A stretch of 64,000 bases of DNA from Kalaharituber pfeilii (taxonomy: Eukaryota; Ascomycota; Pezizomycetes; Pezizales; Pezizaceae), in contig WHUZ01000004.1 in the NCBI GenBank assembly GCA_015179045.1, positions 806,001 through 870,000 on the forward strand. Reading direction: 5' to 3'. Numbering within the stretch: the stretch's first letter is position 1; every line of letters begins with the position of its first letter. This document shows, piece after piece, positions 160-52,215 of the stretch. Under the pieces are notes generated by a model. That model saw only the letters and a program-made list of their open reading frames with translations. It ran no database searches and had not been told where the DNA came from. The position numbers and the translations under genes were made by a program.

Positions 160-160
160 A

Positions 161-17400: not shown

Positions 17401-17404
17401 CGAG

Positions 17405-18414: not shown

Positions 18415-18689
18415 TTGAGGGTAGCATGGAAAAGCTGTTATTATTCCTGGCACAAATGAATTGCCTAGGGATGCAGTGTTATATTGGAGGGTAACAGAAG
18501 AAAAAGCCAGAGCGCGCGCGTAGAAATTGATCGATTGGCCAACTCCGGAAAACGCGAGTGACATGAGAAAATTTTTGGGAGCAGCACAAATATACAGAGG
18601 GTAGATTGAAAATTTCTCGGAACTGGCACGACCACTGTCACGACTCTAAGGGCAAACCAAGTGGCGATGGACCCTGGCTAATTCTATAT

Positions 18690-20642: not shown

Positions 20643-20792
20643 GAAGCGATGGGACGAAATGCTGGAGGATCTAATGGAGAGGGTCAACCAACGAGCATGC
20701 ATGAGGAAATGAAGGATGAAGCACACGAAAGGCAGAGGGAATGGAATGAGAAGAAAGAGAGGTATGACCGGGGCGTAAAGGGGTGGAACCAG

Positions 20793-28700: not shown

Positions 28701-28762
28701 TCGGCAGGATTGTTATTTGATCTGGCTCAGCCTCATGTGGTTGGTCTGAGAGTAGGACTTAC

Positions 28763-29586: not shown

Positions 29587-29673
29587 CATGAAGAACCTTA
29601 TTATTTGCGATTAATTCTGGAGTCGCGAACGACTGTATTCTTCAGATACCGGGGACAACGTTAATGCTTTGTA

Positions 29674-30176
29674 ATGCTAATGTTTCACGGCTCGAGGAAA
29701 ACAAACAAAGCTTCTATGCACATCTATCATATTGAGAAAAAAACGAATAACACTTGCGCAGCCTCACGCTCTCGAAAAAACACTTATTCGTCCAGGGTTG
29801 CGGAAATCGGCTTAGGGGTTTTCAACCCCCTGTGCCTTGGCATGGCACGCCGAAGAACCCCCCCAGTCTCTCCCTCGCGGAGGTACGAGTCGCTGAGGTT
29901 ACGGGGTTGGTGGGCGGGTGACTTTTGCGATTCACGAGGCAGAATTCACGCGGCTTGGAGAGGCCAGCGGGCCCTCTCTTCCCCTTCCTCTTATAGAGGA
30001 GGTTCCTCACTTGACTTGTCCGCCCTTTGCCTACCTAGACAGGGAAATTTTCCTGTGGCTTGGAAAATTTTTCTGTGGCTTGGTGGCGACATTCCGGCTT
30101 CCGTGGCCACCGGGCCCTTAGCCAACAGTCGCTCGAGCCTCACCATTAGCCAGCGGTCAGGCCGCCCCATATTATA
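29674..30176. other. About 500-bp segment present only in copy 1
   Basis: Copy 2 passes straight from GCTTTGTAATG to ATATGAAACTG (63,264-63,283), so this segment was inserted here or deleted there. It is GC-rich with a GGGGTTTTCAACCCCC mini-palindrome and ends near CGCCCCATATTATATG. No frame or element ends are recognised; clear target duplication not seen. Confidence 0.5.
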
Positions 30177-30417
30177 TGAAACTGATCGTCCGGCTCAAGT
30201 ATGCAGGCCTGGGGCTCCAATCTAGATGTAAGATTTATCAGAAGTAATGTAAGAAAACGCAATATGCGATGCGAGAAATTTCCTGTTAGCTAGATACTTA
30301 TACTACATTGCTGAAATTGAACGCACACCTTTAAAGAAAATTGGGCCGGCCAATTATGTAGTGCAGTTTAAGATCAGTCGGTAATAAGGGTTCGGCTAGA
30401 TCCTAGTCTCTACCTAG

Positions 30418-30502
30418 TACTAGCCAGTAAAATATGTATTCGGACAGGGGTACTAATGCACATTATGCGCTACGTCCGAATACATATTTTACTAGCTAGT
30501 AC
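30418..30502. mobile_element. 85-bp palindromic MITE
   Basis: AGCCAGTAAAATATGTATTC and its complement GAATACATATTTTACTAGCT enclose a short middle with GGACAGGGGTACTAATGCAC. The same element is at 63,518-63,602. A diverged relative (GTATTTGGACAGGGG...CCGCTACG) is near 55,785-55,835. Confidence 0.7.
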
Positions 30503-33159: not shown

Positions 33160-33602
33160 GTACACGTTCTGTTATTGTTTTATTGGCTTAATTCTTTCTT
33201 ATCTTCGTTTCACATGTCGTTTACATGGATGGTTGCTATGTTTATCTCGTATATTAATTCTTTCATTTATTCTCGGAATTACTTCGGATATCACATTCAG
33301 CTGGGATTTGTTTCGTACTCGCATACAGCTTGTTTTACTTCGTCTTTTCTTTACGAAACTGTACAAGTTTGTTGCCTATATCTACGGCTACCATTTAGGT
33401 ATAGTCGTCTCACTTTCTGTGTATATAGTCTGCGGAAACCCGCACCCATTTAATACCATAGAGTCGCTCAACTCCTCTCCTCGTTACCTTCCTCCGTGCC
33501 TCCACTCCATTGCTGCCTCCGTTTGCACCATTATCTTTCTCTATAGCGCTTGCCCCGCTATCCTTATTCTTCCGCTACGCATCGTATTACCCTCTCGTGG
33601 GT

Positions 33603-33790
33603 CACGTTGTTAGTCATGTGTGTTATAGCTACTGGAGCAGGTAAAACTATGATAGCTGTCATGTATGCAGCATTATTTGGATCTAGTCATATCCGAGTCC
33701 TCTTCATCTCTCCCTTAATAGCACTTATAGAGTCATAGGTAAAGGATGTAGCCAAACATTATGAATTACAAGTAATAAAGATAAGTTACA
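33603..33790 (+). pseudogene. Helicase (RecQ/DEAD-like) fragment
   Basis: Reads VIATGAGKTMIAVMYAALFG then VLFISPLIALIES, a stop, and VKDVAKHYELQV. The first piece is helicase motif I (TGAGKT), the second is motif Ia (SPLIAL), in the order and spacing of RecQ-type helicases. Only about 55 codons remain with a TAG inside, so this is a scrap. Confidence 0.5.
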
Positions 33791-33799
33791 CATTGTGTA

Positions 33800-34080
33800 T
33801 TAGGATCCATGAGTTCAAGTTCAGATTAGATTTATAAGGGTAAAGGAGTTATAAAGAGGTTGGTTGTTGATTGTTGTATTCTGGATGTAGGAGAATGGTA
33901 TTTTGTATGTGTGTAGATCTATCTAGACAAACTGTGGCTAGTTAGGTGTGCTTAGCTCTAACATTCGCTTGGCTAGGAAACCTAGTTGCTAGGCACTCAA
34001 AAGTGCGTTGCCAACATAAGAATCAAGACCCTCGCTGCGCTCGGCTTTCGCAGCCTAGAGGGTCTTGGCATGAGACTATG
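33800..34080. other. No gene; short hairpin
   Basis: Nothing coding. A hairpin pairs AAGACCCTC with GAGGGTCTT near 34,026-34,067, immediately before the palindromic MITE. Confidence 0.5.
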
Positions 34081-34239
34081 TAGCCTCGTCCCCAGGCGTT
34101 TGTAGAAGCCTGAGATTAGCTAATCGGGTAATCAAGTGAGTGCCAAGAACTGTAATGACAGTTATTACAGTTCTTGGCACTCACTTGATTACCCGATTAG
34201 CTAATCTCAGGCTTCTACAAACGCCTGGGGACGAGGCTA
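34081..34239. mobile_element. 159-bp palindromic MITE upstream of NLR1
   Basis: A near-perfect palindrome made only of the two ends of the 12,068-13,707 element (TAGCCTCGTCCCCAGGCG ... complement), folding around a centre near 34,160. It lies about 140 bp before the NLR1 start, at the edge of the inverted repeat, and is absent upstream of NLR2. Confidence 0.85.
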
Positions 34240-34380
34240 AGGGCTATGAACAGTTGCAAGATAACAGTCATCAACCACATCGCTTATATCTCTAACGTGA
34301 ATAAAGCTCTTATCCAAGTTCTCACTATTATTATCGCTTCATATCTCGTTTATAAAGCACTAGCTCCAGTCATTTTCCAA

Positions 34381-37300
34381 ATGGATAAAAATAGTCAAAC
34401 CAGGTTTCGTGCGAATGTTAGAAAATTGGGGGAAAAGCTTGGGATTCGGTCAGTTTTTAAGAAATGGCTATTTACCTCTACTCAGGCTAACTTCCGCAAC
34501 TCCATAGTGGCTCATCTCGATCGAGATTTCCTGCTGGAAGAGAGGGGCATGTGAGGGCTGCTAGCGCCCCCCCTCCGACAGATAGGCCTTCACCTATTTC
34601 CCCCTGCACAATTCCACAAACTGGACAGGCACAAACATCAGCGAGCCCAGTTACAACTCTCCCATCACCGCCACCATTGGTACAAATACAAACTGTGGAT
34701 GCCACCTCAGGAGCTGGTTGCGTGCACTCACTAAAGGAACAATCGGAATCGCCCCAAACTCCTTTGCAAGGCAATGAAATACGTCCCACTGTGGAGGCCA
34801 TTGTTCAGGATTTAAAGTCAGCGAAAGTTGCTCTCGAAGGAAAGCAATCGGGGGATGCCAAGAGGCATATGGAATGTATATACCAGATCCTTAAGGGGGT
34901 ACAGAAGTATGCAGCTATAGTCGATATAGCGATACAGCATAACCCCCATATCACCGCTCTTGTATGGAGTGGTGTTAGACTTATTTTGCAGGCCAGTCAT
35001 AAATTCTCCCTAATGGAACGAAGGCTAATTATAATAATAGGTAGCACTCAATCGTTTCGAATTAATGGAGAAGGTGAAAGATGCAATGGCAACCATTATT
35101 GAAACGATGGCCACTTGTGAATTCTATGGACACATCTATGTGACTGCATCATTGGAGGTCACATTACATTCAGACTTATCTGAAGCTTTTAAACGCAAGC
35201 TGGGCTCTGCTCTGGATGCACTCTACGATGCGATTTCTAAGTTCACGCTCGAAGTACAAAAATATTTTGGTAGCTCAGCATCCTGTAAGATAATTCAACT
35301 TGTTTGGCTCAGTTTAGATTTTGCTAATGAGAAATGGATTTAGGGGCAAGAAAGATTGAGAATCTTCTCACACCTTTCTCAATATCAATGCAACCAATTC
35401 TCGATGAAATAGCTAGCAAGGAAAAGGTTGTCAGGGAATGTGCAGATATGGCTACAATGAAAAGGATTATGGGTAAGAACGTTATGTGAGCTTGCATAGG
35501 TATATTTTGCTAATGAGAGTAGAAAGTTCCAATGAGCTTAGGCGGATGGAGGGTCTCTTGAATGATATTAGGGGAGAATTACCTATGTTAGGTGGTGAGT
35601 ATATGATTATATTATTTTCGGTCTCCGGAAAATGGTTATGCCACTGATGCTGATTGCTAATGAAAACAGAAATTGCCGCAACCGGGCAGGAAAACCTTGC
35701 CATTACCAGGGAGGTCAACAAGAAGTTATCTGCACTTAGTACGTTTTATTACCCCATCATGCTGATCTCTTGTTAATGTAAAAGTAGTATTGGATCAGCG
35801 TCGAACATGTGTATGGAAAACTTTAGATCCAGAATTTGAACAGCTTAGGAAGGACTACCTAGCTCAACATCAGCTAGACGTGTTCAAGTTTGACTTATAT
35901 ATTCCGGCGGAAGGAATATTGCATCCACATGATAGCAACCACTTTGATCTACTAGAGGCTATGCAGCACTTCCTTTCAGATGACGTACCACAAAAAATTT
36001 GCTTGATACAAGGTGCTGCTGGATCCGGAAAATCAACGTTTAACCATTACCTTGCACGTCAATTATGGACTGAGTACGACGGAGCTTCCAATCAGGCAAC
36101 TGCAGTTGTTCCCGTGTTTATTGCACTCTTTAAAGTATATCAGCCAGGAAGCAACAATCACGATCTCATAGCTACTTTCTTTGCTGAACAGGGGTTTAGT
36201 GAAGATCAAATACAGCAAGTTCAACGTCAGCGACAATTTGTTTTCATCTTGGATGGTTATGATGAAACCAAGAGACAAGAACGCAACTTTTACACTGAAA
36301 ACAGGCTTGACAGATGGAATGCTAAAGTTATCATTACCAGTCGACCAGAATATTTGCCCTCAGGGTATCAGAGCAAGTTTTATCCTCGGGGCCAGTCGCA
36401 TCTATTACGAGAATACTACCTTGCCCCATTCTCGACACCAAGCATTCGGAGGTATATTTCACAATATGTGAAGGCTAAACCTGGACACTCAGTTGAGGAA
36501 TACGAACAGTATCTGCTGAAGCCTGATATTTGTGCTTTAGTCAGCAACCCTTTCCTTCTCACAATGGCTATGACCGTGAAACCAGTTCAAAGCAAAACCA
36601 AGCTCAAGCGTGTCGATTTATACAATCAGTTTATTGATTATTGGATTGAACAGGCAAAAGAACGTTTGGATAATATTCAACTGCCGGATATCCACTGTGA
36701 TGCATACACTAGGTTAGCTGAGCTCGACTTTGCTTTCCAAGTACGATGCTTTTGTCAACAGTTTGCACTAGCTCTCTATCGTCAACAGACGTTAGAAGTA
36801 ACCTATGCGCCTCCTAGTATTTTCCTCAATTCTGTATCGCAAGATGGTCAGTTGGTCTGGAGAGAGTTTTTAGCCCATGATGACGTCAGCGTGCAAATTT
36901 TACGCCTCAGTTCACCGCTAATTCGGCAGAGAGATACTTACCGATTTTTGCACAAGTCACTACGGGACTACTTGGTAGCTGATGCAATTTGGCGGGATCA
37001 GGCATTGAAAGAGTGTAAAGCTAATGCCCTGATAAACAAATTTCATTTTGTCGATGATCCTGCTATTCTTGACTTCATCATTGAAAGAGCGTGGGAATTA
37101 GAAGGCAGTCTTTTGGCCTTAGTTGAAAAATCCAAAATCGACATTAGCTTTTCCCAGGCAGCAGCGAATGCAATTACAATACTAGTTAGAGCTGGGAAGA
37201 GCTTTACGTGTCATGATTTGCGTGGTATACGAATCCCCAGAGCTGATTTAAGTGGTGGTTTCTTTGATCAGGCTCAGCTGGAAGATGCAGACCTCTGTCA

Positions 37301-39393
37301 GGTTCGTACATTCAATAACTTATTACTCGTATCTGGCCTATATAATTAGCTAATACTATGGTAAGCAGGTTCGTATGCATCAAACGTGGCTTAGAAAGGC
37401 AAACTTGAGTAAAGCTAGTATGATGTTTGTATCATTTGGGGAAAGGCCTTTCATAAAGTTAGGCTGGATATCTAGTGTGGCATTCTCTCCTAGTGTGGCA
37501 TTCTCTCCTGATAGCCAGCTGCTTGCCTCTAGCAGTGATAATGGCACTGTACGGCTATGGTCAGTTCAGCGGCAACAAGCTATCCATACCTTTACGGGTC
37601 ATAGCGGCTGGGTAACTAGTGTGGCGTTCTCTCCTGATGGCCAGCTGCTTGCCTCCGGCAGTATTAATCGTACTGTGCGGCTATGGTCAGTTCAGCGGCA
37701 ACAAGCTATCCATACCTTTACAGGCCATAGCGGCTGGGTAACTAGTGTGGCCTTCTCTCCTGATGGCCAGCTGCTTGCCTCTAGCAGTGATGATTACACT
37801 GTACGGCTATGGTCAGTTCAGCGGCAACAAGCTATCTATACCTTTACAGGCCATAGCGGCATGGTAACTAGTGTGGCCTTCTCTCCTGATAGCCAGCTGC
37901 TTGCCTCTAGCAGTCATGATCACACTGTACGGCTATGGTCAGTTCAGCGGCAACAAGCTATCCATACCTTTACAGGCCATAGCCACTGGGTATCTAGTGT
38001 GGCCTTCTCTCCTAATAACCAGCTGCTTGCCTCTAGCAGTTATGATCGCACTGTACGGCTATGGTCAGTTCAGCATCAACAGGCTATCCATACCTTTACA
38101 GGCAATAGCGGCTCGGTAACTAGTGTGGCCTTCTCTCCGGATAGCCAGCTGCTTGCCTCTAGTACTGTTGATCGCACTGTACGGTTATGGTCTGTTCAGC
38201 GGCAACAAGCTATCCATACCTTTACAGGCCATAGCGACTGGGTATCTAGTGTGGCCTTCTCTTCTGATAGCCAGCTGCTTGCCTCTGGCAGTGGTGATCG
38301 CACTGTACGGCTATGGTTGGTTCAGCGGCAACAAGCTATCCATACCTGTACAGGCCATAGCAACTTGGTAACTAGTGTGAACTTCTCTCCTGATAGCCAG
38401 CTGCTTGCCTCTAGCAGTTATGATTGCACTGTACGGCTATGGTCAGTTCAGCTACAACAAGCTATTCATACCTTTACGGGCCATAACGACTTGGTGTCTA
38501 GTGTGGCCTTCTCTCCTGATGGCCAGCTGCTTGCCTCTAGCAGTTATGACCGCACTGTACGGCTATGGTCAGTTCAGCGGCAACAAGCTATCCATACCTT
38601 TACAGGCCATAGCAACTTGGTAACTAGTGTGGCGTTCTCTCCTGATAGCCAGCTGCTTGCCTCTAGCAGTTATGATTGCACTGTACGGCTTTGGTCAGTT
38701 CAGCAGCAACAAGCTATCCATACCTTTACGGGCCATAACGACTTGGTATCTAGTGTGGCCTTCTCTCCTGATAGCCAGCTGCTTGCCTCTAGCAGTCATG
38801 ATGGCACTGTACGGCTATGGTCAGTTCAGCGGCAACAAGCTATCCATACCTTTACAGGCCATAGCGGCACCGTATCTAGTGTCACCTTCTCTCCTGATAG
38901 CCAGCTGCTTGCCTCTAGCAGTTACGATGGCACTGTACGGCTATGGTTGGTTCAGCGGCAACAAGCTATCCATACCTTTACAGGCCATAGCGACCGGGTA
39001 ACTAGTGTGGCCTTCTCTCCTGATAGCCAGCTGCTTGCCTCTAGCAGTTATGATTGCACTGTACGGCTTTGGTCAGTTCAGCAGCAACAAGCTATTCATA
39101 CCTTTACAGGCCATAGCGGCACGGTATCAAGTGTCGCCTTCTCTCTTGATAGCCAGCTGCTTGCCTCTGGCAGTGATATAGTATCTTTATGGCAGATTCA
39201 GCACACGGCTAGCGGTGGCACGGGCACGCTAGACAATCACTCCTTCGACACCGCCTGTCTATGGGCAGCACCCCAAAACAGACTCGACCTCACAAATATT
39301 AATATCCAAAGTGCGACCGGGCTCGATCCTCTCAATATTCAGCTGCTTCGACAACATGGATCAGTTGGCGAGCCTGTGCCCTACCAAGAGTAA
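34381..39393 (+). CDS. NLR1: NACHT-WD40 STAND protein, probable splice-site mutant
   Basis: Eight-exon model: 34,381-34,448, 34,508-35,009, 35,041-35,284, 35,344-35,472, 35,520-35,594, 35,670-35,738, 35,785-37,301, 37,369-39,393. All junctions keep frame (1,542 codons), and introns 1 and 3-7 are GT-AG with CTAA(C/T)- or TTAAT-type branch sites. Intron 2 (31 nt) starts CT in place of the GT in NLR2. Unspliced, the frame stops near 35,100, before the NACHT domain. Domains: Ser/Pro-rich N-terminus; helical STAND N-domain (ITALVWSGVRLILQ); NACHT with Walker A GAAGSGKST and Walker B FVFILDGYDE; pentapeptide-like ADLSG/AQLED/ADLCQ/ANLSK bridge; 14 WD40 repeats; a 60-residue tail. The family senses non-self or triggers cell death in fungi. 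It could be translated from a downstream start, be rescued by cryptic splicing, or be dead. Confidence 0.8.
35010..35040 (+). other. Intron 2 of NLR1 with lost 5' splice site
   Basis: CTAATG here versus GTAATG at the same place in NLR2; the branch-like GCTAAT and the AATAG acceptor are unchanged. Removing 31 nt restores the frame exactly (SHKFS then VALNR). Confidence 0.65.
37480..39190 (+). repeat. WD40 repeat array of NLR1, 14 units of 126 bp
   Basis: DNA units of 126 bp (42 codons) are nearly identical: each has GTACGGCTATGGTCAGTTCA and GCTATCCATACCTTTAC. Differences concentrate in the two codons after GHS/GHN and in the codons around the Asp of S-x-D-x-TV. Units 8-9 and 10-11 share the same pair of signatures (NL..YDC, DL), suggesting a two-unit duplication. 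Confidence 0.9.
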
Positions 39394-39729
39394 GTGAAGC
39401 TGAAGCAGGTACTATTGTTGTGTACGTCCCGTTGGGACACCGTCCACGGCCTCACTTTTTCTCATGGCTTGCTAGTCCCCTTTATATAGCCTACTGGAGC
39501 GTGGCGTTTCTTCTATTTGTGCTTATATCATCCTGTTTGTCATTCAGCACATGTCCATTCAGCAAGAGCCACTAAGTGGCGATTTTTTTGCACTCCCCGT
39601 TGATGTCCTGCAGATGTCATGTTAAATACATTTCTGTCATTCTTGATATGGTCGACGCCCCTGCCTTGTTCCGTTTTCCTGTTTCTCTACAGTGAGCTAT
39701 TGTTGTGCGGTCCAAATCATAGATTGGTC

Positions 39730-39731
<2 letters not shown>

Positions 39732-39768
<37 letters not shown>

Positions 39769-39805
39769 CATTACTCGCATGCCGCCTGAAAGGCTATGGC
39801 GAGGT
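39732..39805 (-). mobile_element. 5'-truncated LINE tail, family A
   Basis: A T-run of about 35 then the complement of the family A end, between AGATTGGTCACTT repeats (right copy 39,806-39,818). Absent at the same place in arm 2, so it arrived after the NLR duplication. Confidence 0.85.
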
Positions 39806-39878
39806 AGATTGGTCACTTGAGTTGATATCCTATTTATGGCTATATTGAAATAATGAAGTGTAATACCTATCAGTGGCT

Positions 39879-40016
39879 TAGTCTCGTAACCAGACGCTGA
39901 CTAAGCGGACTTTCATGCATGGGTGTTGCTCCGCTTAGGAGCAACATCCATGCATGAAAGCTTAGGAGCAACACCCATGCATGAAAGTCCGCTTAGTCAG
40001 CGTCTGGTTACGAGAC
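39879..40016. mobile_element. 138-bp palindromic MITE with 11-bp target duplication
   Basis: Ends TAGTCTCGTAACCAGACGC and its complement; the interior carries ACTTTCATGCATGGGTGTTG in both orientations. TATCAGTGGCT flanks both sides (39,868-39,878 and 40,017-40,027). An 11-bp duplication points to a MULE-type transposase in trans. Arm 2 shows the empty site. Confidence 0.8.
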
Positions 40017-40130
40017 TATCAGTGGCTGTGGGTGATGTCAGAAACGAGTGGATTGACCAGTCTCCCCAAGAATTGGCCTAGTCGCGAATAGGCTGGTCTG
40101 TCCGGAGCCAGAAATGTTCGCCAGGTCGTT

Positions 40131-40829
40131 TCAAAAGTATTGGGACACCTGACTTGCATATTATGCAATATGCAATATACAGTATGCAGTATGCTACTTT
40201 AGATACCTGGTACTTGATAGCCCTCTGAAGTCTCTACCACTACCTTACAACATACCCCTGAACGTAGCCTGCAGTTATGCAAGTAGCAATTAGAAGTAGC
40301 ACATTCGTGGCACAGCACTGTAACTAGATACACAATAATAGTGGGAATGGCAGTCTTTTTTTTTTTTTTTTTTTTTTTTTTGTCACGTGACCCCGCGTGC
40401 AGCTGTTCGCCATGGCAGGGCGGGAATGGCAGTCCGGAATGGGTAAAGAAAGTTGTTAAAACAGCCTAAACAGGTGTGAAACGACTAATAAATCAGCTGC
40501 TGAAATGACCATCAAAAAAAAGCTTCTGAAGTAACTATCAAAACTCCTGCCAAAGCGAGCATCAAATGATGGCGAAATGGCTATCAAAATGGCTGCCGAA
40601 ATGACCGTCAAACAGGTTACTGAAATGGCTGTCAGCACAGCTATAAAAATTGTGAAAATGCTCACCAAAATAGAATTTAAAACAGCAAGATTGAGCAGTC
40701 AGCCATGACGGCAGTGGTAATAGCAAAAGTAAGTGGATTGGATCTGCTGCTCGTGCTAGGCAATCCAGAAGTATACCAGATACTGCATAGCGTATGTTAT
40801 GCATTAGTCAGGTGTCCCAATACTTTTGA
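40131..40829. mobile_element. TIR element in the spacer, about 0.7 kb
   Basis: TCAAAAGTATTGGGACACCT at the left and its complement AGGTGTCCCAATACTTTTGA at the right. The interior has quasi-repeats of GAAATGGCTGTCA/ATCAAAATGGCTGCC type but no transposase, so it is non-autonomous. A LINE tail is nested within it. Confidence 0.7.
40356..40421 (-). mobile_element. 5'-truncated LINE tail, family B (nested)
   Basis: T-run then TCACGTGACCCCGCGTGCAG and CTGTTCGCCATGGCAGGG, flanked by GGGAATGGCAGTC at 40,343-40,355 and 40,422-40,434. Confidence 0.85.
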
Positions 40830-40842
40830 TTGACCTAGTATT

Positions 40843-40887
40843 CTCGCCATATCCCACACGGCGGTATGCGCGTAATGATATTAAAAA
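40843..40887 (+). mobile_element. LINE tail, family A, short
   Basis: TCGCCATATCCCACACGGCG, GTATGCGCGTAATGATATT and seven A residues: the family A end with a short tail. No target duplication identified. Confidence 0.55.
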
Positions 40888-41099
40888 AACAGAAACCATG
40901 AACCACAATAGCTAAGCATTCGATCCAGCACGTATGGAGGGCACACGGCCCGATTTATGCTCAGACTCAATCATGGCTCCCACGGATATCCGCCTGTTGG
41001 AGTCAACTCTGACAACACCAACCGATCATGTCCGCCCGGTCATTGCATGTGCAACCGGACATTGACGCAGCTCTCTCAGACTGCCTGGCAGTAGCGTTG

Positions 41100-41520
41100 T
41101 ATACCCTTAGCTAGTCATGGTTTCCAACAACATCAAGGCACATACCACGGGAACAGGGCGAGAGAACGAACCAGACTGGGCCTCAGGTACAAACCATTAC
41201 AATTGGGCAGATGGATAGGGGACTCTCAGCGGCATCCCGAGAAACAAAGGACTCACAGCATGGAGAAACCGCATAGGAGAAGGAGATGTGGATGAATGCA
41301 GATGGTGCAGGACGAGCAAAGAAACGAAAAACCACATCCTAGGGTGCTGAGGCGGCCAGAGAGACAGGCACAGATCAAGGAATAGACCGATGTTGGCGTG
41401 GGTGACAGAGTAGAGGGAGATGGATGATGGAAGAGGAGACCAGGTAGACAGCTATTGTAACCGGTTGGTGACCATCGCTCCGGTCATGGCCGCGAGGCTA
41501 GAATACTACATACTTTAAAT
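41100..41520 (+). pseudogene. LINE ORF2 C-terminal remnant
   Basis: One frame reads LSGIPRNKGLTAWRNRIGEG then DECRWCRTSKETKNHILGC and a stop (near 41,350). The C-x2-C ... H-x3-C pattern, preceded by a LxxW..RIG motif, is the conserved zinc-finger-like end of fungal LINE ORF2 proteins. It lies in the spacer between the two NLR arms. Upstream sequence is broken, so only the 3' part survives. Confidence 0.65.
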
Positions 41521-41544
41521 CAAGCGAAGTTTCATGCGTTCAAG

Positions 41545-41689
41545 TTTTTTTTTATATATATCATTAATCGCTTGCCGCCCTAGGGGCTATGGAGATGTTT
41601 TAGTTACATAAGGAAATAAAAGGAAAAGATACATAAAGGAATAAAAGAAGATGATAGATAATTGAACAGAGTGGCCATCCCGCTATTCC
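41545..41689 (-). mobile_element. 5'-truncated LINE tail, family A (145 bp)
   Basis: T/TA-rich tail then the complement of the family A end (CATTAATCGCTTGCCGCCCT), flanked by CATGCGTTCAAG at 41,533-41,544 and 41,690-41,701. Confidence 0.8.
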
Positions 41690-41927
41690 CATGCGTTCAA
41701 GTGAACTTGATTCCACCCGTTTCCGACATCACCCACAGTTACTAATAGGTATCACCACTTCATTATTTCAACATAGCCATAAATAGGATATCGATTCAGG
41801 CGACCAGACTATGATTTGGACTGCACAACAATAGCTCACTGTAGAGAAACAGGAAAACGGAACAAGGCAGGGGCGTCGACCACATCAAGAAATGACAGAA
41901 ATGTAAGTATTTAACATGACATCTGCA

Positions 41928-41995
41928 ATCCCCAGAGCCCACAGGGCAGCACGCAATTAATGATATGCATATAAAAAAAAAAAAAAATGAAAAAA
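41928..41995 (+). mobile_element. 5'-truncated LINE tail, family A
   Basis: CCCACAGGGCAGCACGCAAT then TAATGATATGCATAT and an A-rich tail, between ATGACATCTGCA (41,916-41,927) and ATGATATCTGCA (41,996-42,007). Absent from arm 1. Confidence 0.8.
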
Positions 41996-42223
41996 ATGAT
42001 ATCTGCAGGAACATCAACGGGGAGTGCAAAAAAATCGCCACTTAGTGGCTCTTGCTGAATGGGCATGCGCTGAATGACAAACGAGATGATGTAAGCACAA
42101 AAAGAAGAAACGCCGCGCTCCAGTAGGATATATAAAGGGGACTAGCAAGCCATGAGAAAAAGTGAGGCCCTGGGCGGTGTTCCGACGGGACATACACAAC
42201 AATAGTTCCTGCTCCAGCTTCAC

Positions 42224-45200
42224 TTACTCTTGGTAGGGCACAGGCTCCCCAACTGATCCACGTTGTCGAAGTAGCTGAATATTGGCGGCATCGAGCCCGG
42301 TCACACCCTGGATATTTATATTTGTGAGGTCGAGTCTGTTTCGAGGTGCTGCCCATAGACAGGCGGTGTCGAAGGAGTTATTGTCTAGCGTGCCCGTGCT
42401 GCCGCGAGCCTTGCGCTGAATCTGCCATACAGATACTACACCACTGCTAGAGGCAAGCAGCTGGCTATCGGGAGAGAAGGCCACACTAGATACCCTGTTG
42501 CTATGGCCTGTAAAGGTATGGATAGCTTGTTGCCGCTGAACTGACCATAGCCGTACAGTGTGATCATGACTGCTAGAGGCAAGCAGCTGGCTATCAGGAG
42601 AGAACGCCACACTAGTTACCCAGTCGCTATGGCCTGTAAAGGTATGGACAGCTTGTTGCCGCTGAACTGACCATAGCCGTACAGTGCGATCAATACTGCT
42701 AGAGGCAAGCAGCTGGCTATCAGGAGAGAACGCCACACTAGTTACCCAGCTGCTATGGCCTGTAAAGGTATGGACAGCTTGTTGCCGCTGAACTGACCAT
42801 AGCCGTACAGTCTCATCATCACTGCTAGAGGCAAGCAGCTGGCTATCAGGAGAGAACGCCACACTAGTTACCCGGTCGCTATGGCCTGTAAAAGTATGTA
42901 TAGCTTGTTGCCGCTGAACTGACCATAGCCGTACAGTCTCATCATCACTGCTAGAGGCAAGCAGCTGGCTATCAGGAGAGAACGCCACACTAGTTACCCA
43001 GTCGCTATGGTCTGTAAAGGTATGGATAGCTTGTTGCCGCTGAACTGACCATAGCCGTACAGTGCCATCATGACTGCTAGAGGCAAGCAGCTGGCTATCA
43101 GGAGAGAACGCCACACTAGTTACTATGTTGCTATGGCCTGTAGAGGTATGGATAGCCTGTTGCCGCTGAACTGTCCATAGCCGTACAGTGCGATCACCAC
43201 TGCTAGAGGCAAGCAGCTGGCTATCAGGAGAGAACGCCACACTAGTTGCCCAGCCGCTATGGCCTGTAAAGGTATGGGTAGCTTGTTGCCGCTGAACTGA
43301 CCATAGCCGTACAGTCCAATCCCAACTGCTAGAGGCAAGCAGCTGGCTATCAGGAGAGAACGCCACACTAGTTACCCGGTCGCTATGGCCTGTAAAGGTA
43401 TGGATAGCTTGTTGCCGCTGAACTGACCATAGCCGTACAGTGCGATCACCACTGCTAGAGGCAAGCAGCTGGCTATCAGGAGAGAACGCCACACTAGTTA
43501 CCCTGTTGCTATGGCCTGTAAAGTTATGGATAGCTTGTTGCCGCTGAACTGACCATAGCCGTACAGTGCCATCATAACAGCTAGAGGCAAGCAGCTGGCC
43601 ATCAGGAGAGAACGCCACACTAGTTACCGAGCTGCTATGGCCTGTAAAGGTATGGATAGCTTGTTGCCGCTGAACTGACCATAGCCGTACAGTGCGATCA
43701 TCACTGCTAGAGGCAAGCAGCTGGCTATCAGGAGAGAACGCCACACTAGTTACCCAGCCGCTATGGCCTGTAAAGGCATGGATAGCTTGTTGCCGCTGAA
43801 CCGACCATAGCCGTACAGTGCCATCATTACTGCTAGAGGCAAGCAGCTGGCCATCAGGAGAGAACGCCACACTAGTTACCTCGTGGTCATGGCCTGTAAA
43901 GGTATGGATAGCTTGTTGCCGCTGAACTGACCATAGCCGTACAGTGCGATCACCACTGCTAGAGGCAAGCAGCTGGCTATCGGGAGAGAACGCAACACTA
44001 GTTACCCTGTCGCTATGGCCTGTAAAGGTATGGATAGCTTGTTGCCGCTGAACTGACCATAGCCGTACAGTGCGATCACCACTGCTAGAGGCAAGCAGCT
44101 GGCTATCGGGAGAGAACGCAACACTAGTTACTGAGGCGCCTAACTTTATGAAAGGCCTTTCCCCAAATGATACAAACCTCATACTAGCTTTACTTAAGTC
44201 TGCCTTTCTAAGCCACGTTTGGTGCATACGAACCTGCTCACCATAGCATTAGCTAATTAAGACAGATACGAGTAATACGTTATTGAATGTACGAACCTGA
44301 CAGAGGTCTGCACCTTCTAGCTCAGCCTGATCAAAGAAGCCACCACTTAAATCAGCTCTGGGGATTCGTATACCACGCAAATCATGACACGTAAAGCTCT
44401 TCCCAGCTCTAACTAGTATTGTAATTGCATTCGCTGCTGCCTGGGAAAAGCTAGTGTCGATTTTGGATTTTTCAACTAAGGCCAAAAGACTGTCTTCTAA
44501 TTCCCATGCTCTTTCAATGATGAAGTCAAGAATAGCAGGATCATCGACAAGATGAAACTCGTTGATCAGTGCATTAGCTTTACACTCTTTCAATGCCTGA
44601 TCCCGCCAAATTGCATCAGCTACCAAATAGTCCCGTAGGGACTTGTGCAAAAATCGGTAAGTATCTCTCTGCCGAATTAGCGGTGAACTGAGGCGCAAAA
44701 TTTGCACGTTGACGTCATCATATGCTAAAAACTCTCTCCAGACCAACTGACCATCTTGCGATACAGAATTGAGGAAAATACCAGGAGGCGCATAGGTTGC
44801 TTCTAACGTCTGCCGACGATAGAGAGCTAGTGCAAACTGTTGACAAAAGCATCGTACTTGGAAAGTAAAGTCGAGCTCAGCTAACTTAGTGTATGCATCA
44901 CAGTGGGTGTCCGGCAATTGAATATTATCCAAACGTTCTTTTGCCTGTTCAATCCAATATTCAATAAACTGATTGTATAAATCGCCACGCTTGAGCTTGT
45001 ATTTGCTTTGAACTGGTTTCACGGTCATAGCCATTGTGAGAAGGAAAGGATTGCTGACTAAGGCACAAATATCAGGATTCAGCAGATACTGTTCGTATTC
45101 CTCAACTGAGTGTCCAGGTTTAGCCTTCACATATTGTGAAATATACCTCCGAATGCTTGGTGTCGAGAATGGGGCAAGGTAGTATTCTCGTAATAGATGC

Positions 45201-47228
45201 GACTGGCCACGAGGATAAAATTTGCTCTGATACCCTGAGGGCAAATATTCCGGTCGACTGGTAATGATAAATTTAGCATTCCATCTGTCAAGCTTGTTTT
45301 CAGTATAGAAGTTGCGTTCTTGTCTCTTGGTTTCATCATAACCGTCCAAGATGAAAACAAATTGTCGCTGACATTGAACTTGCTGTATTTGATCTTCACT
45401 AAACCCCTGTTCAGGAAAGAAAGTAGCTATGAGATCGTGATTGTTGCTTCCTGGCTGATATACTCTAAAGAGTGCAATAAACACGGGAACAATTGCCGTT
45501 GCCTGATCGGAAGCTCCGTCGTACTCAATCCATAATTGGCGTGCAAGGTAATGGTTGAACGTTGATTTTCCGGATCCAGCAGCACCTTGTATCAAGCAAA
45601 TTTTTTGTGGTACGTCATCTGAAAGGAAGTGCTGCATAGCCTCTAGGAGATCAAAGTGATTGCTATCATGTAGATGCAATATGCCTTCCGCCGGAATATA
45701 TAAGTCAAACTTGAACACGTCTAGCTGATGTTGAGCTAGGTAGTCCTTCCTAAGCTGTTCAAATTCTGGATCTAAAGTTTTCCATACACATGTTCGACGC
45801 TGGTCCAATACTACTTTTACATTAACAAGAGATCAGCATGATAGGGTAATAAAACGTACTAAGTGCAGATAACTTCTTATTGACCTCCCTGGTAATGGCA
45901 AGGTTTTCCTGCCCGGTTGCGGCAATTTCTGCTTTCATTAGCAATCAGCATCAGTGGCATAACTATTTTCCGGTGAGTGAAAATAATATAATCATATACT
46001 TACCACCTAACATAGGTAATTCTCCCCTAATATCCTTCAAGAGACCCTCCATCCGCCTAAGTTCATTGGAACTTTCTACTCTCATTAGCAAAATATACCT
46101 ATGCAAGCTCACATAACGTTCTTACCCATAATCCTTTTCATTGTAGCCATATCTGCACATTCCCTGACAACCTTTTCCTTGCTAGCTATTTCATCGAGAA
46201 TTGGTTGCATTGATATTGAGAAAGGTGTGAAAAGATTCTCAACTTTTCTTGCCCCTAAATCCATTTCTCATTAGCAAAATCTAAACTGAGCCAAATAAGT
46301 TGAATTATCTTACAGGATGCTGAGCTACCAAAATATTTTTGTACTTCGAGTGTAAACTTAGAAATCGCATCGTAGAATGCATCCAGAGCAGAGCCCAGCT
46401 TGCGTTTAAAAGCTTCAGATAAGTCTGAATGCAATGTGACCTCCAATGATGCAGTCATATAGATGTGTCCATAGAATTCACAAGTGGCCATCGTTTCAAT
46501 AATGGTTGCCATTGCATCTTTCACCTTCTCCATTAATTCGATACGATTGAGTGCAACCTATTATTATAATTAGCTTTCATTTCATTACGGAGAATTTATG
46601 ACTGGCCTGCAAAATAAGTCTAACACTACTCCATACAAGAGCGGTGATATCGGGGTTATGCTGTATCGCTATATCGACTATAGCTGCATACTTCTGCACC
46701 CCCTTAAGGATTCGGTATATACATTCCATATGCCTCTTGGCATCCCCCGATTGCTTTCCTTCGAAAGCAACTTTCGCAGACTGTAAATCCTGAACAATGG
46801 CCTCCACAGTGGGACGTATTTTATTGCCTTGCAAAGGAGTTTGGGGCGATTCCAATTGTTCCTTTGGTGATTGCACGCAACCAGCTCCTGAGGTGGCATC
46901 CACAGTTTGTATTTGTACCAATGGTGGCAGTGATGGGAGAGATGTAACTGGGCTCGCTGATGTTTCTGCCTGTCCAGTTTGTGGGGTTGTGCAGGGGGAA
47001 ATAGGTGAAGGCCTATCTGTCGGGGGGGGGGCACTAGCAGCCCTCACATGCCCCTCTCTTCCAGCAGGAGATCTCGATCGAGATGAGCCACTATGGAATT
47101 GCGGAAGTTAGCCTGAGTAGAGGTAAATAGCCATGCTTCTTAGAAACTAACCCAATCCCAAGCTTTTCCCCGAATTTTCTAACATTCGCACGGAATCCCG
47201 TTTGTCTTTTGAGATCAATTTTATCCAT
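42224..47228 (-). CDS. NLR2: NACHT-WD40 STAND protein, intact
   Basis: Exons (5' to 3' on the minus strand): 47,228-47,152, 47,090-46,589, 46,557-46,314, 46,254-46,126, 46,078-46,004, 45,928-45,860, 45,813-44,297, 44,233-42,224. The joined frame is 4,623 nt, 1,540 residues, without a stop. Start ATG was chosen because the upstream frames of the two arms disagree while agreement begins at MDK. Domains: Ser/Pro-rich segment to about residue 100; helical STAND N-domain (about 100-340); NACHT from about 435, Walker A GAAGSGKST near 442 and LDGYDE Walker B; pentapeptide-like bridge about 840-885; 14 WD40 repeats about 900-1,480; tail ending VPYQE. Proteins of this architecture (for example the Podospora HNWD family) recognise non-self through the WD40 surface and oligomerise via NACHT. 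No effector domain of known type (HET, patatin, HeLo) was seen. Confidence 0.9.
42440..44150 (-). repeat. WD40 repeat array of NLR2, 14 units of 126 bp
   Basis: Same 126-bp unit as NLR1. Variable triplets after GH include SDR, DHE, SGW, SSS, SNR, SNI, SDW and SSW; those around the Asp include GDR, NDG, DDR, YDG, WDW, HDG, DDE, IDR and HDH. The set differs from NLR1 although the framework is nearly the same, so the two arrays would present different surfaces. Confidence 0.9.
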
Positions 47229-47369
47229 TTGGAAAATGACTGGAGTCAGTGCTTTATAAACGAGATAATAATAGTGACAACTTGGATAAAGAGCTTTATT
47301 CACTTTAGAGATATAAGCGATGTGGTTGATGACTGTTATCTCGCAACTGTTCAAAGCCCCCGCATTTTG

Positions 47370-48190
47370 TTTTCTGTTGTGATTTGTACTCCGCACCATG
47401 CCTTTGGCGAACCATTGGTAAGCTGCGTACTATGCCAATTCTGCACTCCGATCCATCAAACAGGAGCCTCATTCTGTTGTAAGTGAAGGACATAGAGTAT
47501 GCTTGGCATCAGCCCCTACGGTGATTCCTTTAATCTAGGGTCGGAATGTGAAGCACTCTACTCCAAAATTTATTCACTATTGACTCAATGTAGAGAATAT
47601 CGTTCACGTATTGTTGTCCCTATGGCCGATGACAAAACCAAGCTTTTCTGCCAGATTGGTACTAGTATACGTCATGTATGTACTAATAATGAAAATTACA
47701 AATTAGGAACACAATGAACGTAGTCAACTGGATGGTTTGAGCGTATATTCTTGCCGTCCACCTCACATTCCACTTTCACGCCAGCTTTGGCGAATTCTCC
47801 GGTGTCGACTGTCGCTCGGTATCCCCATCATGCCATTAGCTTCCCAGGCTTCCCAAGGGTGAGGGACATCTCGAGTCATGCTGATAAAGCCGATGCGGGG
47901 GGAAAGCTGGACAGCCCTGAGCAAAGATGCTTATACCAGGGCAAACTGGTGAGCAGGGAGAAGGGAGAAACTGGGGGTGGTTGTTGGAAAAGATACGAGG
48001 AGTGATCCATTGCTCCGCTTCAACGCTGAGTTCGCTGTGCGGAAATTGCGCAAGTGCGAATTTTGCACTGCACTTTATACTCGCTATGCATACCTCAATC
48101 ATTTTAAATCGAGGGATTCTGGTGCTTAAGGTTGAGGCTCGGAAGGGGTAAGCATGGCCGCTAGCAACCGAGCGGGAAACTAAGGTTCTT
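47370..48190. other. No recognisable gene
   Basis: Short frames only, between the NLR2 upstream edge and the LTR-like sequence; none shows a family motif. Confidence 0.5.
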
Positions 48191-48453: not shown

Positions 48454-48973
48454 TCTCTGCTAAACCCCTCTCTCAAGCAGTAGTGGGGTCAACCGACCGC
48501 CCCCACGAGTCAAGTCCTCCCACCCCACGAATCGGATCTTCCTACCCCCGCCTCTTTATCCTCCTGATAGTCATTGGGAGTGCAAACGCATCTTTTCCTG
48601 AGCCAAATAACTCCCCTTTCCTAGGCTTAAAGAAATTTGAGATGGGCACCATGGAACACCCCTGGGATGCGCTTCCCTCCAACATGCTCAACCGCGTATA
48701 TGACGCATCACTCTGCAATCTTTCACAAACAACGAACGGCCCATGCCCCCTCACAGCTACTGTAACTTACCGCTCCCCTTCGCTGTTGTGTCCCAAAGTA
48801 TAACCAGATCCCCGACTTCATAGTCCCACCCCTTTACGCCCCGGTCATACCTCTCTTTCTTCTCCTTCCGTTCACTCTGCCTTTCGTGTACTCCATCCCT
48901 CATTTCCTCCATCATGCATGCTCATTGGTTGACCCTCTCCATCAAATCCTCCAGCATTTCATCCCATCGCTTC

Positions 48974-49615
48974 TCACCAAGCTCCATCAGTATGGATTGC
49001 ACCTTCCAAGACCCTCCCTGAGAGGTTCGCCATAGTCTCAAACGGCAATCGGTGCTCGACTTCAAATAGCATTTCAAGAAGTGTATACCCCAGTTCACCA
49101 ATCACCCTGGTGTTCACCGCCCCTTGTCGCTCTGGCCAATTCTTGGGCCATAATCTGAGGTCACCCTTCTGGTGTGTGCACTTTCGCAGACAGTCTTCCA
49201 GCCCTCGATTGGTCCATTGCATCATTCCCGTGGACCCACTTGGATTCACTACCGATTCGATCCCGTATTTCGTGCAACAATCCTGGGACGTAGGATTCAC
49301 AAAGCGGGTACCTGGATCGTGATAGATTGCGATTTGTGGTTGACTCATAAACTCCTCGAGGTACCGCACTGTCTCCTCCGCATCATTCTTTTTGGTAGCC
49401 CATACACGGGTATAGCGCGTGAAGTAATCCACAACATCGAGTATATACCGACACCCATCTGAATCCCGGACCATGAATGGTCCAAGGTATTCCACCCCCA
49501 ACAGGTCGAATTGCTGGTACACTGCCGTAGGGCTCACCTCTTGGCTTCTCACCACTGGGCCCATCCGTGGACATATGATGCACCCCTCGACATATTCCCG
49601 AATATCTCTCGCCAT
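48974..49615 (-). pseudogene. Gypsy pol remnant: integrase, copy 2
   Basis: 213 codons nearly identical to 20,001-20,642, including the same altered catalytic context (GVEYLGPF, YHDPGTRF, GSTGMMQW). Not expected to be active. Confidence 0.75.
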
Positions 49616-50424
49616 TCTCTTCCACTATACCTTCGCGCTAAGTGTTGCAGCTACCTCTCCCACAGAGATGTATCCCGCCCCGTCGTGTGCCTCCTCAATT
49701 ACTACACGCATGTCCTCCTTCCGCACACATGGCACCACTTGCCCGGTTCCCAGCACTCATGAGCCCACTCTTCCCAGATTTGAATCTGCTTGCTCCTGCC
49801 TTAAAAGCTACTCTCTCTGATACATTCCTCAGCCCCTCCGGCAGCCTTCCCCCTCTCATGAGGCATGGGACCATACTTCTATACCACACATCCTTTCCGC
49901 AATTTTCCACCTCCCTCTCGAGCTCCAAACCTTCTAAGCCAGTTTTCCTCGCGTAACAATTTCGCATAACAAACTGGTTCATCTCCCTCTATTACAACCT
50001 GATATTCCTCTCCCCCAAAATCTTTTCCTCTCTTCTCACCACCTCCCTTTGTGCTCTATTCCAGGGTTTATATCTTTCCCCTTCACCACCAATGTCTATC
50101 TCTTTACCTCCTCTCACCGCCTTCCCACTTCTTTCCCTTTCACCACCAATATTCATTTCTTTACCTCCTCTCACCATCTTCTCTTACACTCCATTCCAGG
50201 GTTTATATCTTTCCCTTTCACCTCCAACGTTCATTTTTTTACCTCCGTTCACCATCATTTTTTGCACTTCATTCCAAGGTTTATATCTTTCCCTTTCGCC
50301 TCCAACAACACCACACCCGTCTCCCTAGCACCATATCCAGAATCTTTTGCTACTTCATGGAGACATTCGATCCCTTTGCTCCAATGTCTTTAATCAGCTC
50401 CTCAAATCTGCCCTTACCATCCTT

Positions 50425-50958
50425 CTAAAACCACTCCACATCTTGCCTATCATGTCTCAGCACCTTTTGAGCGACTTCTTCTGCCACCACTGGCCCCTCT
50501 TCGGGGAACAATGTTCTGGACAAGCCATCTACTATGGCATTTCTGCTTCCCTCGATGTGTGATCTCAATGTTATAAGGTCTGAGATTGATCGCTCACCGT
50601 GCATAAATCCCATCAAGCTTGTCTGAGTGAGGAATGTTACCAAGAGTTTGTGGTCTGTGAAGGGTATCGTTTTGCGAGCCGGTTTATAGCCATATTTATC
50701 TGAGAACCGCACCATTGCTAACAGCTCCCTTTTGTATGTCCCATAATTCCTTTCTGCTTTATTTAATGTCATTGAATCATAGATTAGTGGCCTCTCAACC
50801 TCTCCGACTAACTGAAGTAGGCAGAAGCCAATAGTGTATCTAGATGCATCGAAATAGGTCTGTAAAGGCCACCCCATATCATCTTCAACTGAGAATATTG
50901 CGACCACTGTCATACATTTGTTCTGGATGATATAGAATGAGCCAGGGTCCATCGCCAC
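50425..50958 (-). pseudogene. Gypsy pol remnant: RNase H, copy 2
   Basis: An open 177-codon stretch with PLQTYFDASRYTIGF, ERNYGTYKRELLAMV, PFTDHKLLVTFL and IVDGLSRTL. It is less damaged than copy 1, but detached from RT and integrase by stops and frame changes. Confidence 0.75.
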
Positions 50959-51200
50959 TTGGTTTGCCCTTAGAGTCGTGTCAATGGTCGTGCCAGTTCC
51001 GAGAAATTTTCAATCTACCCTCTGCATATTTGTGCTGCTCCAAGAAATTTTCTCACGTCACTCGCGTTTTCCGGAGTTGGCCAATCGATCAGTTTCTACG
51101 CGCGCGCTCTGGCTTTATCTTCTGTTACCCTCCAATATAACACTCCATCCCTAGGCAATTCATTTGTGCCAGGAATAATAACAGCTTTTCCATGCTACCC

Positions 51201-52215
51201 TCAACATGGCACACAGCGGCCTCGGTTAATAAGTGTTTTCAGGAACTCGAATTGGTCCTTGAATCCCAGGTTCCTCATGAACATGTCATCCACATACGCA
51301 CGAAATTTCTCACCTATCAGCGACGGCTCCGGATATGGTTCAGGGATTGGCCCAAAAGCGAGATAACCCAATTCATGGAGCACCAACTCCAACCTTCGGG
51401 GTATCCTAGTTGGCCGAACCTGCCCTATACCTGGAACCTGAAAAGCAAGTATTGGCTGACTCTCCTTCTCTACCCCATTGCCCAGTATCCATTCTTCAGA
51501 TCACCCTTCCCATAGTATCCCACCTCATGGCCTCCCCTCGACATAGCATCTTGAACCTCTGATGGTAACACCACTGGTCTCTCAGGTAGTTCTTCCTTCA
51601 CGTGACTATAATCTGATGTCAATCGCAGGTCAGAATTCGGGTCCTCCGGCACCTTCACCACTATCACCGGGGGCGCCGCCCACGGTGAGAGTTGCTCGTC
51701 GGAGGGAGTCTTCTCATACATCCTACATTTATCCCCTGTCTTATCGTCTTCCGGAAGAACCCTTCCTGCCTTGGTGATAGTCTCCGATGCCCTTTCATTG
51801 CGTAGGGGACTGCCTCCTACTTGAGCCGCACCCTGCTTGAGCCGCACCAAGCTTTGGATCGAATCAGCCATGGGTAGCTCATTCAGCTGGGTGATCCCCA
51901 ACTCTCGATACGTCCAAAGCAATTCCATACTCTCCGCTTCTTCTCCCATGTGTCATATATTGTTCCGAGAGTGAACCCTGCATCCTCTACCCACTTCCTC
52001 AGCACCTTATCACTCAAGGTTTGTTCTACACTGAGGTCTTTCCTCATGATTCGCCTTTTGATCGGGAACACTCCCTGCACCCCCTCTAGGACCCTTTTCC
52101 TCGCGCACACGCACCCTCGCTTCTCTGCTTCCTCACAACCATGCCCCTTTACTGTGTCCACATGCCTCTGCTCATAATACTCCTCCTTTTCTTCATTGCC
52201 TTCCTGAACCCCCAT
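51201..52215 (-). pseudogene. Gypsy pol remnant: reverse transcriptase, copy 2
   Basis: Contains APPVIVVKVPEDPNSDLRL, GDLKNGYWAMG followed by a stop, and in another frame AYVDDMFMRNLGFKDQFEF with the catalytic YVDD. The stop after YWAMG is shared with copy 1; the Trp at the copy 1 TGA site (17,938) is intact here. Confidence 0.75.

Follow-up and report, generated by a model that had tools for sequence, protein, structure and literature searches.

Separate rewriting of WD40 arrays as the probable source of variation in a mirror-image pair of NLR genes of Kalaharituber pfeilii

Does the diversity of WD40 repeats in fungal NLRs arise by change within arrays, or do loci exchange repeats, as has been suggested for Podospora? 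Three young copies of one NLR in Kalaharituber pfeilii, two of them linked mirror images and one apart, offer a natural test of this question. The linked copies, here called A and B, lie in a window of 64,000 nucleotides, the whole stretch of DNA analysed (contig WHUZ01000004.1, positions 806,001 to 870,000). An earlier note had described them as two complete eight-exon NLR genes, tail to tail in a 13-kb inverted repeat, and had proposed that the hairpin itself could generate their variation.

The gene structure was confirmed by predicted models. Gene A (34381-39393, plus strand; exons 34381-34448, 34508-34991, 35041-35284, 35344-35472, 35523-35594, 35670-35738, 35788-37301 and 37369-39393) encodes a predicted NACHT-pentapeptide-WD40 NLR of 1534 aa, and gene B (47228-42224, minus strand; exons 47228-47152, 47090-46607, 46557-46314, 46254-46126, 46075-46004, 45928-45860, 45810-44297 and 44233-42224) one of 1532 aa. 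Both spliced frames are open throughout, and intron 2 of both models requires a GC-AG reading. Pfam detected NACHT above cut-off in the NACHT exon frames of A (35766-37349, plus strand; match at 35997-36476, E 8.5e-13) and B (44249-45832, minus strand; E 2.4e-11), as well as 14 WD40 stretches in each arm. The N-terminus of A, scanned as the exon 2 frame and a spliced stretch that excluded the 22-codon exon 1, matched DUF7708 (2.8e-17) and, below cut-off, NACHT_N; these were the only profile matches there, and no HET domain was found in these two scanned stretches. Of the families reported for the two NACHT-exon frames, 11 and 6 in number, none was PF00805; for the WD40 exons, the best 25 matches were listed. 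It is annotated in Kalaharituber and Mycoavidus relatives, and in A a pentapeptide-like stretch was seen by eye at the end of the NACHT exon frame.

Self-comparison also confirmed the inverted repeat. The left arm (34241-39623, plus strand) aligned base by base with the right arm (41993-47359, minus strand, matched as 47359-41993) at 93.26% identity over 5397 columns, bearing out the near identity claimed across exons and introns; 5.4 kb at 93% is not explicable by chance. The size of 13 kb, however, has to be replaced by two arms of 5.4-5.8 kb and a spacer of 1.7-2.4 kb. Similarity continues in shorter matches to 39874 and 41741 and, by eye and with small insertions skipped, to approximately 40060 and 41715. 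A and B are 96.0% identical over their 5′ part (exons and introns) and ~91% across the WD40 arrays, and their facing stop codons (39393 and 42224) are 2.8 kb apart.

The flanks of the arms are unlike. Homology of A to B ends 140 bp upstream of the A start codon at transposon-like repeats: a near-perfect, MITE-like palindrome (34081-34239; self-match 98%) abuts the arm, and multicopy repeats beside it occupy 33200-34078. A palindromic MITE-like insertion was identified by eye and alignment in the 3′ flank of A (39889-40018). At the spacer end of the B unit, an element with terminal inverted repeats (40123-40840, by eye) is present also in the third copy, C, and the homology between B and C stops here. 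The conserved 5′ region of B (47258-48184, minus strand), likely its promoter, is common to contig C351, which carries C, and ~70-80% alike to two C38 loci; beyond 47359 it had no match on the A side within the window. An assembly artefact, or a pair of alleles placed one after the other, would produce highly identical arms, but this is extremely unlikely for arms that differ by 4-9%, have unlike flanks and lie in a contig of 2.2 Mb. Moreover, each of three RPB2-type loci occurs once, and on this single-copy state the alleles reading was rejected; the genome looks haploid.

Each WD40 array consists of 14 units of 42 aa (126 bases), located at 37468-39231 (plus strand) in A and at 42386-44149 (minus strand) in B; array C also has 14. 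TRF gave 90% and 93% matches at the DNA level for the units of A and B. Five codons per unit (5, 6, 8, 24 and 26) hold most of the amino-acid variation. Their positions are the same in A and B and their residues differ, so that the different variable-site signatures described before were recovered by unit comparison. These codons were again the most variable in the mean over 16 arrays (the loci with at least 7 usable units among 30 fetched). Outside the five codons, the unit backbones of these arrays lay 0.020 from their own consensus and 0.104 between consensuses, and the consensuses of A, B and C differed by 1-2. Array length varies among relatives (7 units in C179, 4 in L007).

Prediction for the entire WD40 exon gave a pLDDT of 37, and the five models from the seven-unit prediction ranged from 35.9 to 92.7. 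The seven-unit propeller model with pLDDT 92.7 has 28 strands, and its best structure matches were seven-bladed propellers and PDB 2ymu, a highly repetitive propeller of 577 residues (TM 0.95 by query length). The 2ymu protein is cyanobacterial, with 14 near-identical blades; its structure listing gives no NLR context. Seven consecutive units are predicted to form one seven-bladed propeller, with the variable residues mostly in the loop that precedes strand a and in the one that joins strands b and c. From this one model and the unit count, two propellers of seven blades each would accommodate the 14 units that A, B and C have. The NACHT matches and the five variable codons support a classification of A and B as putative NLR-type genes with hypervariable WD40 sites as in fungal allorecognition.

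Copy C allowed us to ask which genes are closest. B and C share a unit (40123-48184, minus strand; C351:123649-131169 plus 133395-133944) that includes the 3′ spacer and 5′ flank of B and is 95.6% identical over 7274 columns, with additional shorter pieces and 89% in the outer 5′ piece. In the 5′ region, identity was 98.0% for B-C, 96.0% for A-B and 95.95% for A-C; the 160 variable sites comprise 96 unique to A, 30 to B and 32 to C, and 2 at which all three differ. Judged from these alignments, B is sister to C on another contig and not to its hairpin partner A. The arms are thus not each other's closest relatives, whereas the arms of a gene-conversion pair would be expected to be.

This relationship bears on the proposal that pairing of the arms leads to mutual conversion and to shuffling of WD40 units, making variation locally. 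Arms that are 93% identical and 2.4 kb apart would favour such a process. Outside the arrays, however, the 32 sites with A=B≠C are matched by 30 with A=C≠B, so that no arm-to-arm homogenization is evident there since the B-C split. Five A=B sites in a row in the 3′ part gave P 0.039 in one of six run tests, but for the 5′ region the A=B run had P 0.17, and none of six tract tests was significant. Within the arrays, A and B had five codon-24/26 pairs in common, twice the expected 2.5 (P 0.019 without correction, one of three pairwise tests), and B and C had none. Two exact C-half strings were common to A and B and none to A and C or to B and C; exact N-half units common to two arrays were not found. 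When whole units were compared, 9 of the 12 units of A lay nearer to a B than to a C unit (permutation P 0.23). Against these points, array backbones differed equally between A and B (mean 6.14 differences per unit pair) and between A and C (6.15). The arrays of B and C also differed as much as those of A and B at the variable codons, though the C contig holds no further family match among the best candidates listed. In these comparisons, the edge units (1 and 14) of every array, together with the tenth unit of C, which is one codon short, were dropped from the codon-variability, pN/pS and unit-distance tests; the shuffle and half-unit tests used units 2-13, with C unit 10 kept, one codon out of register. 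We consider conversion and unit shuffling between the arms unlikely as the source of variation; there are weak hints that some A-B exchange may have taken place, limited to the arrays. Short conversion inside arrays is hard to detect because the A, B and C backbones are so alike (1-2 consensus differences).

Comparison of B and C showed where the arrays changed. In 11 aligned unit pairs, pN was 0.418 and pS 0.056 at codons 5, 6, 8, 24 and 26, compared with 0.024 and 0.050 at the remaining codons. Units at the same place in B and C were not closer than shuffled ones (42 differences versus 43.4, sd 2.1). The variable codons of B and C are as unlike as those of unrelated units, despite a 98% identical 5′ region. 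RIP was rejected as the diversifier: the 5′ parts of the arms have no RIP-like dinucleotide bias [TA/AT 0.79-0.81; (CA+TG)/(AC+GT) 1.41-1.44], and polarized changes have no CpA preference. The WD40 exon of A is less clear, since its TA/AT of 1.33, unlike that of other parts, leaves room for a mutation bias there.

With a probability of about 0.7, we conclude that A and B are likely intracellular non-self sensors, the 14-unit WD40 arrays of which were rewritten separately in each gene and not by exchange between the arms. Ligand contact at the variable loops would release the NACHT switch; NACHT would then oligomerize and the N-terminal DUF7708/NACHT_N-like domain would signal, probably for cell death. 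New loop residues likely come from point mutation; short conversion or unequal exchange would likely spread them among the units of an array, and diversifying selection would likely retain them. It is doubtful that a rewriting engine confined to the array re-specifies each unit at five codons, leaving third bases nearly unchanged and the number of units at 14, and makes no use of a near-identical array 2.4 kb away. If this were true, a sensor could be re-specified while the 5′ part of its gene changes by 2%, pointing to targeted codon diversification and not to repeat shuffling between loci. From the earlier view of a candidate non-self recognition locus with locally generated variation, we retain the NLR type and the hypervariable WD40 sites, but not the hairpin as their source, given the three-way comparison with C.

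Separate rewriting in functional sensors has to be weighed against the reading that one or both genes are functionless relics, A being promoter-dead. The loss of homology upstream of A, where the region is conserved in B, C and two C38 loci, would agree with this, as would the one-base deletion that causes a frameshift in exon 2 of C. On the other hand, the reading frames of A and B each stay open for more than 1530 codons. Their NACHT exon gave dS/dN of 0.092/0.024 (A-B), 0.117/0.023 (A-C) and 0.055/0.012 (B-C), and the resulting dN/dS of 0.20-0.26 indicates purifying selection, with a strong excess of amino-acid replacements confined to the five codons. Relics are therefore improbable, but A may be weakly expressed, as suggested by the transposon-like flank that it has in place of the region conserved in B and C.

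We also considered whether the convergent layout has a function. The NLR family comprises at least about 81 loci in the genome (merged from 95 search rows, the counts of which are lower bounds). Among 18 neighbouring family pairs less than 40 kb apart, counted over 79 of the 81 loci (C2 and C13, with stops, omitted), 15 were tandem, 2 convergent and 1 divergent. The convergent layout is thus not kept family-wide, and a functional paired layout was rejected. A regulatory pair, in which the family is silenced by antisense or double-stranded RNA from readthrough of the convergent 3′ ends, would suit the geometry of the facing stop codons, but is very unlikely with 2 convergent pairs in 18. The layout probably arose as a side effect of dispersed duplication in a region rich in transposons. 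The mirror-image arrangement appears ordinary, and the rapid change of the sensor is the notable part.

The NACHT exon was 44% identical over 92% of its length to a protein of Mycoavidus in which NACHT, PF00805 and WD40 occur together. Its matches include Mycoavidus and Mortierellaceae, with the NLR nearest to Kalaharituber pfeilii. The input to a midpoint-rooted tree was 11 own-genome rows and 27 of the 91 proteins found; a Mortierella row without a motif match was dropped. In this tree the 11 sampled own-genome loci formed one branch, and Mycoavidus was the nearest named neighbour of Kalaharituber plus this branch. A pattern search for the family in bacterial and archaeal genomes gave 27 matches, none of which was confirmed.

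The predicted architecture and sequence kinship of A and B resemble those described in the available text on NACHT-PPR-WD40 NLRs of Mortierellomycota and Mycoavidus endobacteria (PMC11291939); the genes here differ in having eight predicted exons and at least about 81 loci. Sensor-helper pairs of plants and fungi likewise consist of two adjacent NLRs in opposite orientation, head to head (excerpts of PMC12258605). By contrast, A and B are convergent, near-identical copies with equal domains, and their tail-to-tail layout gives them no shared promoter.

The Podospora HNWD genes, as portrayed in the sections available of PMC1805685 and PMC2873952, share with A and B a NACHT domain and highly conserved WD40 units, such repeats being defined by likeness above 85% over a stretch longer than 100 aa (excerpt of PMC4986451). 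A and B have the NWD-type combination of NACHT, highly conserved WD40 repeats and diversifying top-face codons (pN > pS). Positive selection is reported in the same two sources for HET-E/D/R codons 7, 9, 25 and 27, which correspond to codons 6, 8, 24 and 26 here (consensus alignment, offset by one), and functional het-d/e arrays were modelled as 14 blades in two propellers (extract of PMC12222747). Podospora proteins differ in carrying a HET domain, instead of which the stretches scanned here have a DUF7708/NACHT_N-like domain and a pentapeptide-like linker, and usually 11 plus 3 cryptic units, whereas all 14 are conserved here. The Podospora accounts available report exchange of repeats between loci, whereas here backbones differ between arrays and the 5′ parts have no RIP-like bias. 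Our findings carry the HET-E/D/R codon map and the layout of 14 blades over to an NLR family whose linker is pentapeptide-like and whose nearest named relatives are found in Kalaharituber, Mycoavidus and Mortierellaceae.

The two halves of the inverted repeat, a left arm at 34241-39623 and an oppositely oriented right arm at 47359-41993, were 93.26% identical in a self-comparison of the window. Spliced models gave one predicted eight-exon gene per arm, A with 1534 aa (34381-39393, forward strand) and B with 1532 aa (47228-42224, reverse strand), which bears out the hairpin and the facing eight-exon NLR genes described in an earlier note. The domain order was a DUF7708/NACHT_N-like region (located in gene A), NACHT, a pentapeptide-like stretch (recognised by eye), 14 WD40 units of 42 aa and a conserved tail.

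Gene form and relatives suggest that the window is fungal. We searched the whole genome (78 Mb, 360 contigs) with the 5′ part of A. Among the matches listed, the near copies were B and C351:127759-130854 (copy C, on another contig), each 95% identical; the next best match reached 78%. Intron 2 was GC-AG in all three copies (window 34992-35040 and 46558-46606; C351:130053-130101). In copy C (C351:122500-132400) a one-base deletion shifts the frame of exon 2, and the frames of the NACHT and WD40 exons are open. Pairwise identity over the 5′ region was 98.0% for B-C, 96.0% for A-B and 95.95% for A-C, and of 160 sites, 96 were unique to A, 30 to B and 32 to C. These values indicate that B and C are sisters and that A lies outside. 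B and C also have in common the spacer and upstream flank of B (40123-48184). Polarisation with an outgroup, which left 12 sites unassigned to a branch, gave 56 changes for A, 28 for the B-C stem, 30 for B and 32 for C, branch lengths that are clock-like. The dS of the NACHT exon was 0.092 (A-B), 0.117 (A-C) and 0.055 (B-C).

The earlier note had further proposed that the hairpin could promote gene conversion between the arms or shuffle WD40 units, so that variation is generated locally. Conversion between A and B after the split of B and C should produce an excess of sites at which A equals B and differs from C over sites at which A equals C and differs from B. Outside the arrays, the counts were 32 and 30, and thus no trace of arm-to-arm homogenisation was found in the three-way comparison. 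None of six tract tests was significant. The longest A=B run in the 5′ region was four sites (P=0.17), and a run of five sites in the 3′ part had P=0.039 as one among six run tests. Homogenisation of the arms by the hairpin is therefore not supported outside the arrays. Two results from within the arrays speak against separate evolution of A and B. The two genes had five codon-24/26 pairs in common against an expectation of 2.5 (P=0.019 in one of three tests), and of 12 A units, nine were closer to a B unit than to a C unit (permutation P=0.23).

In 35 complete inner units, variation was concentrated at codons 5, 6, 8, 24 and 26, followed by codon 16. The same five codons led when averaged over 16 arrays, namely those with at least seven usable units among 30 fetched loci, A, B and C included. 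The average within-array entropy of these 16 was 0.79 for the first and second bases and 0.31 for the third. At codons 5, 6, 24 and 26 of the inner units, the majority third base occurred in 31 of 38 codon types. For the five codons, the 11 unit pairs of B and C gave pN 0.418 with pS 0.056; the remaining array codons gave 0.024 and 0.050. As the earlier note had stated, the arrays of A and B differ at the variable sites. At these codons, same-place units of A and B showed 46 differences compared with 43.9 for shuffled units (A-C, 48 vs 45.7; B-C, 42 vs 43.4; one C unit in this test was out of register). Since same-place units were not more alike than shuffled ones in any pair, positional likeness at the variable sites has been wholly lost while synonymous sites changed by ~5%.

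That B and C have no codon-24/26 pair in common does not sit easily with a reshuffling of inherited units as the only process. The backbone distance was 0.104 between array consensuses and 0.020 inside arrays (16 arrays), and inspection by eye showed no unit of A, B or C with the backbone of another subfamily. Mutation, short exchange inside one array and diversifying selection may jointly be enough; targeted mutation is not needed, although it may play a part. A RIP-like bias was absent from the 5′ parts of the arms, but TA/AT was 1.33 in the WD40 exon of A.

At least ~81 loci, among them A, B and C, make up the family (from the merging of at least 95 match rows). The convergent layout of A and B is an exception in it, because 15 of 18 neighbouring pairs (<40 kb) were tandem, two convergent and one divergent. 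A further convergent pair lies on contig C38 (C38:81239-82756, forward, and C38:99038-100051, reverse; 16 kb apart). Upstream of A, homology ends 140 bp from the start codon, where a palindrome lies next to two multicopy repeats that fill this flank (33200-33613 and 33613-34078; 94-99% identity on many contigs, 40 of 188 candidates scored). B, C and two C38 loci retain a conserved 5′ region. Within the window, no counterpart of it was found on the side of A, and the expression of A may thus differ.

SINE-like elements with poly(A) tails and a common 3′ end occur genome-wide and at window positions 7943, 9388, 39767, 40860, 41560, 41945 and 61015; several show target-site duplications and apparent 5′ truncation. 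Their 21-base core had 6070 genome matches (≤2 mismatches) and its reversed control none. A second kind of poly(A)-tailed element is very short, has apparent target-site duplications and is likewise found genome-wide (window 10507, 14031, 40382 and 61700; C351:123733); its 33-base core had 2878 matches (≤3 mismatches) compared with 0 in the control. A second inverted pair (15085-20789 and 48823-54522; 95.2% over 5.7 kb) probably represents two oppositely oriented retroelement copies. The window also holds direct duplicates (28709-30502 and 62053-63602; 97.6-99.2% in three blocks) and a 1179 aa retroelement pol frame (20-3559) with RT, RNase H and integrase domains, whose order suggests a Ty3-like element.

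The closest named matches of the NACHT exon were six Kalaharituber pfeilii proteins (40-50% identity), followed by Mycoavidus, Gigaspora and Mortierellaceae. In a midpoint-rooted tree of 37 rows, 11 sampled genes of this genome formed one branch (support 100/99) adjoining Kalaharituber and two further rows; the next named neighbour was Mycoavidus, with two further rows, and Mortierellaceae stood apart. PMC11291939 reports that NACHT-PPR-WD40 NLRs of Mortierellomycota were acquired from Mycoavidus. NLRs of the A/B sort are already known as a kind. Our literature search, mostly of sources other than subscription journals, found reports neither of the A-B pair nor, for Pezizales, of the same architecture combined with conserved arrays of 14 units. 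What is new and useful is the three-copy comparison and the negative outcome for the hairpin.

A, B and C each had 14 units, as did C320, C1, C57 and C317 at L008 (the last with a broken frame) among eight further arrays. The other four had 12, 11, 7 and 4 by pattern count, which may have missed some in the arrays of 12 and 11, as these hold diverged longer units. The best of five models of a seven-unit stretch of B (pLDDT 92.7; range 35.9-92.7) had 28 strands and resembled solved structures of seven-bladed propellers as well as 2ymu, a repetitive propeller; pLDDT was 37 for the full WD40 exon. Because the modelled strands of the first unit run 7-12, 18-23, 28-32 and 37-42, codons 5-6 are placed in the loop before strand a and codons 24-26 in the b-c loop, with codon 8 opening strand a. 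An alignment by eye to the WD40 consensus matches codons 6, 8, 24 and 26 to Podospora codons 7, 9, 25 and 27, which PMC1805685 reports to be under positive selection and sited in the d-a loop and b-c turn. Fourteen units would fit two seven-bladed propellers. This count parallels the model of active het-d/e alleles as two seven-bladed propellers, usually with 11 conserved and three cryptic repeats (PMC12222747).
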